Shown one piece after another: positions 5,008-15,147 of a DNA stretch of 15,621 bases; within the stretch, counting starts at the first letter, position 1, and the number at the start of each line of letters is the position of its first letter. Origin of the DNA: Glomus cerebriforme (lineage: Eukaryota > Glomeromycota > Glomeromycetes > Glomerales > Glomeraceae). A model generated the notes under the pieces. The model ran no database searches and was not told the DNA's origin. It saw nothing but the letters and a program-made list of their open reading frames with translations. The stretch is from assembly GCA_003550305.1 (NCBI GenBank), contig QKYT01000144.1:115578-131198 (forward strand), given 5' to 3'. Made by a program: the position numbers and the translations under genes.

Positions 5008-5982
5008 GATCTACTTAATTTGGGAAACGGGGCAACTCTCCCTGCTGATCCCTACGCCCATTTCTCTGAAGAAGTTTTGGAAAGAAAAGTTGCGCTTTTT
5101 GGCCGTTTTGTCCTAAGAAAGCGGTCTTTTAGTTATAGGAAAAGTTGCTCTACGCTGTTGGACTTAACTAGAGAGGTTTAGAAAATTTGTTATTTAGTGT
5201 CCAGATCACCAAGTTTTTCCGCAAGTCAGGTCAACATAATTTTCAGTCACCTACGTCTTTCTCAAAAGTTTATACCCGAGCAGTCGTTTGGTATTCTAAG
5301 ATACGCTTTGCGTGCACAAGACGGATGGGTTGGACTTGTGGCTGCTCCTGGTGGACCCTGGAGCAGACCTAGCGTGGAGTTTCTTTAGAAGTGAAGTGGT
5401 TTTTCACTGAGTTGTCGTATAGGCTTGGCTCAGCAGGAAGAGGCTTTTCTGGAGTATAAGTTTGGTGTAATTTCCCTTAATAAAATTTTAATTTTCGTTT
5501 TCTGTTGGTGGAAAGGTGGAAGGCATCAGGACAAATACCGAACTGGCTTTAGAACATAAACATATACCGCTATACTTAATCTACTTTCCTTGGCTGCAGA
5601 TTTTGAAGAACTACTGCGGAGTGGTGTCTTCAGGCAGGAGATGGGGGGTACTGGAAATTTTGATTGACAGTCGATCATCTGTTGATGATTGGTTCCCTTG
5701 TTGTTACATTCCTAGGTTATTTGTTTCACAGATGGTGATCCCTAATTTTGCCCCTTAAGGTAACGTCATTGTAGTTGAATAGAAAATTTAATAAAAAGAA
5801 TAAAATGGTGCGGAAGACGTTGGGTACAGGGTCGATTCTTAGTGTTGGGTAGAACTGGTTTGGATGTTTTAGGGACAAGATTGTTATTTATTCTGCAATA
5901 GGTATATCAAGGATCAAGATTCTTCGACAGGGTTGGATGTTATCCAAGCACTTCTGCTTGCACGTGCTGAGAAGTTTTAGGT

Positions 5983-6176
5983 AAGTAGTCATCTCGATTC
6001 ACTGGAATGAGAAGCATCTGGGCCGTGAGAAATTGACTTATTTCGGAAAGACACCTACCGGGTTGGACGGCGGTTGAAAAGCCATGTAGGTTGGCAAGGT
6101 ACTGCGGGATGGCTTTCAGACGAGATAGTATAAGCAGTCGACTCGATTCATCTGGAGCATCTATTAGGGCGCCGAG
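5983..6176 (+). repeat. Internal diverged direct repeat of the retro-insertion
   Basis: AAGTAGTCATCTCGATTCA at 5983 onward matches AAGCAGTCGACTCGATTCAT at 6132 onward. In each copy this is followed by CTGGA, GCATCT and a GGGC...GAG block. The copies are about 149 bp apart and differ by substitutions and a short gap. Confidence 0.6.
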
Positions 6177-6614
6177 TTGGGGTACTGGTCCTGATAGGGA
6201 AGTGGAGAGATAGAAGTAGGTTTCTTTTTCTTTCTTGTATTTTTAGGTTAGTATTAGATAGTTTTACCTTTCTTTCTGGAGGTTGGTACTAGTAGCCGAC
6301 TTCTATAATTTCTCTTACAACTTTCTGGTCGAAGTTATAACAAATCGTACTAGTTAGAAGATCCAATGTGATTGTGGAGAGATTTGGGGGAATTGATTGA
6401 AGGGTGAATTTTATTTGGTGCTAGTACTGCTGGGGTATGGGAGAGAACCAGAGCATATTAACTATCTAAGGAGTGTCTTGTCTTCAGACCTCACTCTGGG
6501 GACTCATGCTACGTAAGTACGATGCGTTGGGATTTTCCATTGGGTTGGAGGTCTTATCTCTGAGCTATATAATTTTATTTTTATGTATTCCGGGCATTGT
6601 CCACCGATTTACTT

Positions 6615-6620
6615 AATAAA
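6615..6620 (+). terminator. AATAAA polyadenylation signal of the retro-inserted RNA
   Basis: AATAAA lies 22 nt before the first A of the 18-A tail, the usual spacing for a cleavage and polyadenylation signal in the source transcript. Confidence 0.8.
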
Positions 6621-6660
6621 GTTCATGATTCAGCACGTCTTCAAAAAAAAAAAAAAAAAA

Positions 6661-10557: not shown

Positions 10558-12017
10558 TCAATTTGGACCCATACTTCGAAAAATTGCTTGTTGAATATCG
10601 TATAAATCGATAGCAACTCCTGGTCTTTGAAGAGGATTGGGAACTTGAGGTTGAGGAGGCCCTTGAAGGAAAGGTTGTGAAGAGATGACAGTATAGAATG
10701 TAGGAAAAGCAGGAGGTTGAGGGCAACCAGCAAAAATACAATTACAATCGATTGTAATCCATTTCATATGAGGACCAGTGCAAAAAGAACCCTCCCTGCC
10801 ATTGGCATATACAGATCCGAACTCAATCTGAAAGTGACAAGTAATGTGAGCTAAACAAGCAAAAGAATAACAATTGTAAAACACACCAATCCTACCTCTT
10901 CAATTGCATCAAATGTTGTAGCAAATTGATTTTGCTGAAGAGTTGCAGTCCGACAAAATTTTAGGCACTGTCAAGAATACAAAAGAACAGATTAAGCAGA
11001 TGAATAGTGAAGAAAAAAATCACAAAATTATACTAACCCGCAAACGACGCAAAGGGCGTCTAGTCCGGTTATTACGACGTTTTCCCTTCCAATTACCTAT
11101 CTTGATAACAATAACATCTTCACAGCGATTTGGTGCTAGCCAGTAATTATTTATTTTATCCGTTACATGCTTAAGTGTTTCTGAGGAAGCGACTTCAAAA
11201 ATTATAGTTGGCCATGGATTTCCCTAAAAAAAAATTATAAGTTCTTAATGAAATCCATATTTTTCATATCTAACAAATTAATAGTAATATTGACAAATCA
11301 TACAAACATTCTTATCACAAGGATTTAGTGCTTGATTCAGTGGATCCTGTAGACGTACGGGTGTAAAACATGCGTCTGGCTCTTCATATTCACCCGTTTG
11401 AATGTTACTGTACAAACCTGGATGCAATAAAAATTAGTTTCAGCACAGCAAAATATGTACGCAGGCTAAATTCTTACTTTTTGCTCCACAGTTGTCGACA
11501 TCATCTTGCGCTGTTGCATTATTGAAGGCGCTCATAAACCGTTTAGTAAATTCACCGTGTGCACGTTCGTGCTCGCCATTAGGTAACTCAATAAGAGTTA
11601 CAGTACCGTTTCGATAGTCAAAGAACCTCCTGGCCTTAATCTTTTCAACTCGGTTTGCGAACTGATTAAACTTTACGCCTCTCTCTAAAACTAGAGGTAA
11701 TCTAAAAGATAAATCAAACTTCAGAATGAGACAAATGTAATAAGGTGAATGCTAACGTTTTACCTTCCCTCATCAACCTGCAGAGAACTTAAAGAATCTT
11801 CACTCAACCACCAATTCTTTTCCTTTTCGTTGGCTTCATTCATATTTGTATCTGTGTTCACACCTGTGTCCAAACTGTCCAAACTGAAACTGTTCAAGCT
11901 GGAAGCTGGCTGACGGCTACCGTAAGATCCGAACAAGATTTGACTAGCAATGCGCTGTGACCGCCGTTTTGGTGCGGAAGCGCTTTTAACTTTATTTTTT
12001 TTGTTTATTGGAGACAT
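10558..12017 (-). CDS. Uma2-like (DUF820) PD-(D/E)XK nuclease-fold protein, six exons, 371 aa
   Basis: The exons are 12017-11764, 11701-11478, 11417-11308, 11223-11038, 10967-10896 and 10827-10558. Introns of 60-84 nt are all GT-AG, and the phases fit (1116 nt, TGA stop). Residues 1-84 are polar with a basic KKNK/KRRSQR stretch (possible nuclear signal). The Uma2 fold follows: FFDYRNGTVTLIELPNGEHE (about 111-130), EPDACFTP with the PD aspartate at 174, PTIIFEVASSETL with Glu206, then K219 in DKINNYW, replacing the usual beta-strand lysine as in Uma2 proteins. A KGKRRNNRTRRPLRRLR basic patch (about 242-258) and a Cys- and Pro/Gln-rich tail ending IDLYDIQQAIFRSMGPN complete it. The family is mostly bacterial and annotated as putative restriction endonuclease, so an ancient transfer with later intron gain is likely. 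The substrate is unknown. The start is the first ATG after a short palindrome; an upstream non-coding exon is not excluded. Confidence 0.85.
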
Positions 12018-14642: not shown

Positions 14643-15147
14643 TCAAAAACTGATCTATCTTACAGATATCTTATAAATATTGGGTACCCAAAATGCAGAA
14701 AATCTGCTATACATTGGGTACCCAATATGTATACTATAGAATTAAAAAATACAATTTATTAATTATCTCGCTATCCAGTAATCATAAAAAGATGAAATAT
14801 AGCTCATTTGATTCACCTTACTGAGACGTATCGAATGGCACTAATTTCGCATTTCTAGGTTGATAGATGAAATATTTGATAAATCGTAAAAAAATAACAA
14901 TATCTTGATATCTATCGCACCTAGAAATGCGAAATTAGTACCATTCAATACGTCTTAGTGAGGCGAATCGAATGAGCTATATTTCATCTTTTTATGATCA
15001 CTGGATAGTGAGATAATTAATAAATTGTATTTTTTAATTTTATAGTATACATATTGGATATCCGATATATAGCNGATTTTCTGCATTTTGGGTACCCGAT
15101 ATTTATAAGATATCTGTAAGATATCTGCAAGATAGATCAGTTTTTGA
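14643..15147. mobile_element. Foldback MITE with ~220-bp inverted arms
   Basis: The left arm 14643-14860 and the right arm 14919-15147 are reverse complements with scattered mismatches, around a loop of about 58 nt. The ends are TCAAAAACTGATCTATCTT and its complement. The right arm carries one extra 11-bp AGATATCTGTA-type unit. Shared blocks include ATTTCGCATTTCTAGGT and AAAAAGATGAAATATAGCTC. The element has no coding capacity. The left side reads TACACTGG just before the arm, which would fit a Tc1/mariner-like end after a TA target, but the right end does not match beyond TTTTTGA. Superfamily and exact ends are therefore unsure. One N lies in the right arm (15074). Confidence 0.8.

Follow-up and report, generated by a model that had tools for sequence, protein, structure and literature searches.

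What a nuclease-fold gene of the Uma2 family, interrupted by five introns, is doing in a fungal genome is the question raised by a 15,621-nucleotide stretch of Glomus cerebriforme DNA (hereafter the window; C233:115578-131198 of a 112.5-Mb genome). The Uma2 family is chiefly bacterial, with many members in cyanobacteria, and little is known of what its proteins do in the cell. A branch of long standing in plant-symbiotic fungi that bears introns and retains the active-site residues would provide a eukaryotic setting for studying that function. The gene in the window appears to belong to such a branch, an old one, of the Uma2 PD-(D/E)XK family, and it is probable, though by no means certain, that the branch represents a resident family of functional Uma2-fold nucleases in this fungus. 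That estimate is made apart from any role in defence.

The gene and its Uma2 domain

In a Pfam scan of the window protein at E 10, PF05685 (Uma2) was the sole family to match, with an E-value of 3.4e-6. The match, which lies narrowly above the curated cut-off, joins residues 111-224 to profile positions 14-119 of 172. Weight is added by the product of the sister copy on C291 (P0002), which scores 34.5 bits, and by 12 of the 18 relatives scanned, which match PF05685 at E 1e-3. By prediction on this close copy, the family has the Uma2 version of the PD-(D/E)XK fold, and the structure alignment of P0002 reaches model residue 380-385 and the C-terminal end of the bacterial chains. A passage in PMC1913061 identifies DUF820 as a PD-(D/E)XK family with 1wdj as its representative. 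The window family resembles bacterial Uma2 (DUF820, COG4636; PF05685; 1wdj, 3ot2) in predicted fold, in the order aspartate, glutamate, shifted lysine, and in a C-terminal strand and helix; it differs in having a basic N-terminal extension, a Pro-rich insert, a Cys-bearing stretch and five introns, and the similarity in sequence is weak. NCBIfam contained no match for P0002 or for P0042, a protein of a second Uma2 family described below.

The sequence-only reading had named D174, E206 and a shifted K219 as the Uma2 set. All three are present and are conserved across the family (Table 1), as judged from 41 rows besides the 371-codon model, one of which (P0001) derives from the same locus. E130 is kept in 37 of 38 ungapped rows, C259 and C263 in 31 of 32 each, and C312 in all 29; it is possible that these cysteines bind metal. 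Two further claims of that reading need amendment. The ELPNGEHE motif is present, but the profile alignment pairs it with a stretch that follows the usual FEL..GK segment of Uma2, whose counterpart in the window protein is RRFFDYRNGTV. The Cys/Pro-rich tail is an addition as regards its Pro-rich linker and Cys-bearing stretch, but the C-terminal end itself aligns with Uma2; by eye, PGVAIDLYDIQ falls opposite the LPGFxLxxxxI ending of other Uma2 proteins in alignment.

The proposed position, strand and exon structure were reproduced in full from the window DNA, with 371 codons and a stop assembled from six exons on the minus strand, 12017->10558. Introns 1-5 measure 62, 60, 84, 70 and 68 nt, and all five have GT..AG boundaries. 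The model was checked against genomic copies, in place of transcripts. The public protein of the locus, P0001 (Glomus cerebriforme C1645_108299; 263 aa), is 100% identical over 70% of the query and departs from the 371-codon model after exon 4. Because the part encoded by exons 5 and 6 is present in annotated models of several relatives (e.g. P0002, P0003, P0005, P0006 and P0007), the longer model is favoured. A search of Rfam gave no match at gathering score.

Table 1. Parts of the Uma2 gene, in order of transcription, with window positions. Residue counts refer to ungapped rows.
Feature	Position	Strand	Remarks
Exon 1	11764..12017	-	start codon, basic N-terminus, codons 1-85; C291 sister copy begins farther upstream
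Intron 1	11702..11763	-	GT..AG
Exon 2	11478..11701	-	Uma2 domain begins; holds DYRNGTV and ELPNGEHE
Intron 2	11418..11477	-	GT..AG; 5 genome places, every one a family copy
Exon 3	11308..11417	-	holds PD aspartate
D174 codon	11374..11376	-	kept in 36/37 ungapped rows of 41
Intron 3	11224..11307	-	GT..AG; 7 genome places, family copies or remains of one
Exon 4	11038..11223	-	holds FEVASS and shifted lysine
E206 codon	11194..11196	-	kept in 37/37 ungapped rows of 41
K219 codon	11155..11157	-	kept in 38/38 ungapped rows of 41
Intron 4	10968..11037	-	GT..AG
Exon 5	10896..10967	-	holds CLKFC
Intron 5	10828..10895	-	GT..AG
Exon 6	10558..10827	-	Cys-bearing stretch, Pro-rich linker, C-terminal Uma2 helix, stop

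Copies, selection and decay

The introns recur in other copies of the gene, bearing out the view of an intron-bearing gene in a eukaryote. Both other open copies, on C291 and C257, have all five introns as GT..AG in the same places. By eye, a distant copy on C74 has the intron 3 acceptor and introns 4 and 5 at the window positions, and one on C860 has introns 2 and 3; in their best exons these two copies share 52% and 45% identity, respectively, with the window protein. Among the three open copies the ratio of nonsynonymous to synonymous change (omega, dN/dS) is 0.26-0.40 over the whole coding region and 0.24-0.36 over the domain. Purifying selection acts between the open copies. The family also gains copies and loses them by decay: the C311 copy retains most splice sites, but its frame is damaged and its intron 5 is longer; in those on C1 and C1047, stops interrupt the frame and some splice signals are gone. 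The C291 copy starts at an upstream ATG whose position falls in a gap of the window copy, and the N-terminus of the latter is therefore shortened or shifted.

Several of these observations weigh against a functional nuclease family. Taken alone, the Pfam match of the window protein is marginal (27.1 bits, cut-off 27), and 6 of the 18 relatives scanned have no PF05685 match at E 1e-3. The sequence profile of the family matched no solved structure at E 1, and its comparison with a profile of bacterial-type Uma2 was weak (probability 18%, E 1.3e-3). P0029, the lone exception at the D174 position, carries arginine there. Three sister copies (C1, C1047 and C311) have decayed, and the upstream start is lost from the window copy. 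The last two points would suit a family that is functional but whose window copy is becoming a pseudogene. This seems unlikely, since the copy retains 371 open codons in six exons with all splice signals and an intact D-E-K set. It is about equally unlikely that the family has kept the fold without cutting, binding nucleic acid or a partner while the conserved acidic and lysine residues serve a structural purpose. Such a role would be in keeping with the distance of the window family from bacterial-type Uma2, and with the other residues seen by eye at the lysine position in some single-frame relatives of a further family, B2; against it, E206 and K219 are invariant in the ungapped rows of the window family, and D174 varies once.

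Whether the gene belongs to a transposon had been left open, and the evidence now argues against membership. Spread by transposition, with the gene serving the element, might be suggested by the several dispersed copies, part of them decayed, and by a 538-nt block, 88% alike, that lies about 3 kb upstream of the gene in both the window and the C257 locus. However, flank alignments of the copies revealed no common terminal repeats, and among the 25 inverted-repeat pairs listed of 110 between 9000 and 14500, which are AT-rich, none both frames the gene and is common to the copies. In all 15 pairs of six loci (the window and five paralogue loci; blocks >150 columns) the ends of homology are specific to the pair and none is fixed, unlike those of a fixed-end element. 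The five introns are common to copies, and the protein is under selection. A mobile-element nuclease seems very improbable.

Within 10828-11763 the introns are more alike than the exons in all five comparisons made (L039-L043). Identity to the window in introns and exons, respectively, is 93.9 vs 83.1% for C291, 84.5 vs 76.4% for C257, 91.2 vs 79.0% for C1047, 84.0 vs 65.3% for C311 and 89.4 vs 75.3% for C1, the exon values for C257 (exon 1) and C311 (exons 1 and 6) being lowered by alignment to unrelated sequence. Relative to C291, change at G/C sites is similar in introns (0.176) and exons (0.195), whereas change at A/T sites differs (0.029 and 0.148). Base composition accounts for only part of the effect. 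Positive selection was rejected as its cause because dN/dS is below 1. Mobile introns were rejected as well: counting the window, the genome has 5 sites with intron 2 and 7 with intron 3, all of them family copies, with a decayed remnant at C860:247317 among the sites of intron 3.

Relatives and origin

A single-sequence search found 29 proteins at E 1e-3, and a profile search found 41 at E 0.01 among the 7992 best candidates. Forty of the 41 are organism-named and fall in ten genera, Glomus, Rhizophagus, Entrophospora, Paraglomus, Funneliformis, Acaulospora, Racocetra, Scutellospora, Dentiscutata and Gigaspora, all of which we take to be arbuscular mycorrhizal fungi. This spread, together with intron positions common to distant copies, upholds the age proposed for the gene. 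The Paraglomus protein P0007 is placed among Glomus, Rhizophagus and Entrophospora rows in the trees, a departure from what we presume to be the species tree; mixed assemblies or gene loss are possible reasons. Several relatives carry the public database label putative restriction endonuclease protein. No relative of the window family was found in the genome_contigs, viral_contigs, plasmids and phages scanned, in part with narrow peptide patterns, by methods of limited reach. Within that reach, the intron-bearing branch has so far been seen in arbuscular mycorrhizal fungi only.

A literature search that covered subscription papers in part found no description of an intron-bearing Uma2 branch, and the main text of a horizontal-transfer survey of Rhizophagus irregularis (PMC5982333) lacks the words endonuclease, restriction and nuclease. 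In a passage of a 2014 study of 137 fungal proteomes (PMC4102429), Uma2 is reported in Trichophyton rubrum only; what that protein has in common with the present family, by description, is PF05685 in a fungus.

The window family is not the only Uma2 family of these fungi. The family search of the genome gave 20 places, and open frames were read at 10 of them and at L053. L001, L003, L004, L054 and L055 belong to a bacterial-looking family, A, whereas L048-L052 and L053 constitute the single-frame family B2, which has a PT-x-x-x-E-V strand and a C-terminal end in common with the window family. Several B2 frames have, by eye, another residue at the lysine position. Family A (P0042, P0146 and relatives; L001-L008, L054 and L055) includes some members with C2H2-like fingers. 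It is like the window family in its Uma2 domain, its occurrence in the same fungi and a joint grouping against bacterial-type rows; it differs in that the Uma2 domain lies in one exon, followed in some annotated proteins by the finger. PF05685 matched all 21 family A rows scanned, four of them bacterial, and a C2H2-like match was found in five of the 21, that of P0042 being below the Pfam cut-off. The window protein has no C2H2 finger in a Pfam scan at E 10, which reported Uma2 alone. At the L004 locus the public protein, P0042, runs on into a C2H2-like finger that is missing from the L004 frame, so some family A members have at least one intron. Among the best 120 of 263 family A matches are proteins of the same fungi, two of Mortierella and one or more of Phytophthora sojae, and then Crinalium and bacterial-type proteins; no family A relative was found in genome_contigs with narrow peptide patterns. 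Profile comparison gave E 3e-27 for family A with bacterial-type Uma2, E 5.3e-7 for the window family with A3 (family A and four bacterial-type rows) and E 4.9e-4 for the window family with seven family A rows. These fungi have two or more Uma2 lineages, and in one of them some members end in zinc-finger-like tails; the lineages should therefore be kept apart in statements on bacterial nuclease genes of these fungi.

The claim of an old bacterial acquisition holds as to age and is likely as to bacterial origin, the direction of transfer being deduced. A first tree had 46 rows, seven of them bacterial-type and one of these named. A second, of 49 rows, was made by taking six rows out of the first set and bringing in nine proteins encoded on plasmids (Thermomicrobium, Manganitrophus, Chlorohelix, Gloeocapsopsis, Leptospirillum, Jeotgalibacillus, Gloeocapsa, Tolypothrix and Pseudanabaena); ten of its 15 bacterial-type rows are named, and the other five are assigned to bacteria on similarity. 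A branch (98/98) separates the 34 fungal and oomycete rows from the rest; the window family, on a long branch, is grouped with B2 (100/98). A bacterial origin of the gene family is likely, since most Uma2 proteins are bacterial and the fungal and oomycete rows stand together against the 15 bacterial-type rows. The tree fits one acquisition followed by divergence; separate origins are possible, given an alignment of 206 columns, branches that the program reported as long and a set of rows without endobacteria.

It is very doubtful that the genes came from the fungi's own endobacteria instead of by an old common acquisition. A table in the review PMC8227670 lists Uma2 endonucleases as moved from Mycoplasma-related endobacteria to Diversispora epigaea, a parallel to the present case in being Uma2 in an arbuscular mycorrhizal fungus. 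However, the D. epigaea Uma2 proteins found here are of family A, and none is among the 41 of the window family. Narrow patterns revealed no relative in genome_contigs, and in a tree built without endobacterial sequences the rows from fungi and oomycetes form one group.

Possible roles and nearby repeats

If the protein is a nuclease, D174 and E206 would bind a divalent metal, K219 would assist, and phosphodiester bonds in nucleic acid would be cut, while the basic N-terminus could help to hold or reach the substrate. That N-terminus, which many annotated relatives lack, is the sole basis for the suggested nuclear setting.

Restraint of foreign or selfish nucleic acid is perhaps the most likely role, but it is put forward as a weak guess. 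It draws on suggested roles of bacterial Uma2, on the neighbourhood of a plasmid Uma2 gene and on matches to the PADLOC candidate-defence family PDC-S03. A section of PMC2701414 describes bacterial Uma2 as a likely solo toxin, a predicted nuclease rarely found beside antitoxins. Of the two proteins scanned with PADLOC, P0042 matched PDC-S03 at E 7.2e-7 and P0002 weakly (E 0.027, two models). A Uma2 gene on a Pseudanabaena plasmid (L064:523-1128) has a gene of the phosphoadenosine phosphosulfate reductase family on one side and a DUF4007 gene on the other, perhaps a defence setting. A part in repair or in some other form of DNA processing is also conceivable. A bolder and rather improbable view is that in arbuscular mycorrhizal fungi one acquired bacterial Uma2 nuclease gave rise to several nuclear families, among them an intron-rich one whose copies are gained and decay, and that these families defend the cell innately against the nucleic acid of endobacteria, viruses or transposons. 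If true, the defence reading would make them a eukaryotic counterpart of restriction.

Two repeats lie elsewhere in the window. At 5010-6660 is a repeat of about 1.65 kb with a poly(A) end, flanked by repeated attaatattatattt and resembling, by eye, a non-LTR (long terminal repeat) type insertion; it has no long open frame, and its 5500-6500 part has at least 41 genome matches (40 of 385 candidates scored). At 14643-15147 is a long inverted-repeat element whose arms, 14656-14860 and 14919-15123, are 93% complementary. This element is the window's version of the 538-nt block mentioned above, whose counterpart lies at a similar distance from the C257 copy. The shared block could be a repeat dispersed in the genome or could belong to a larger duplication.
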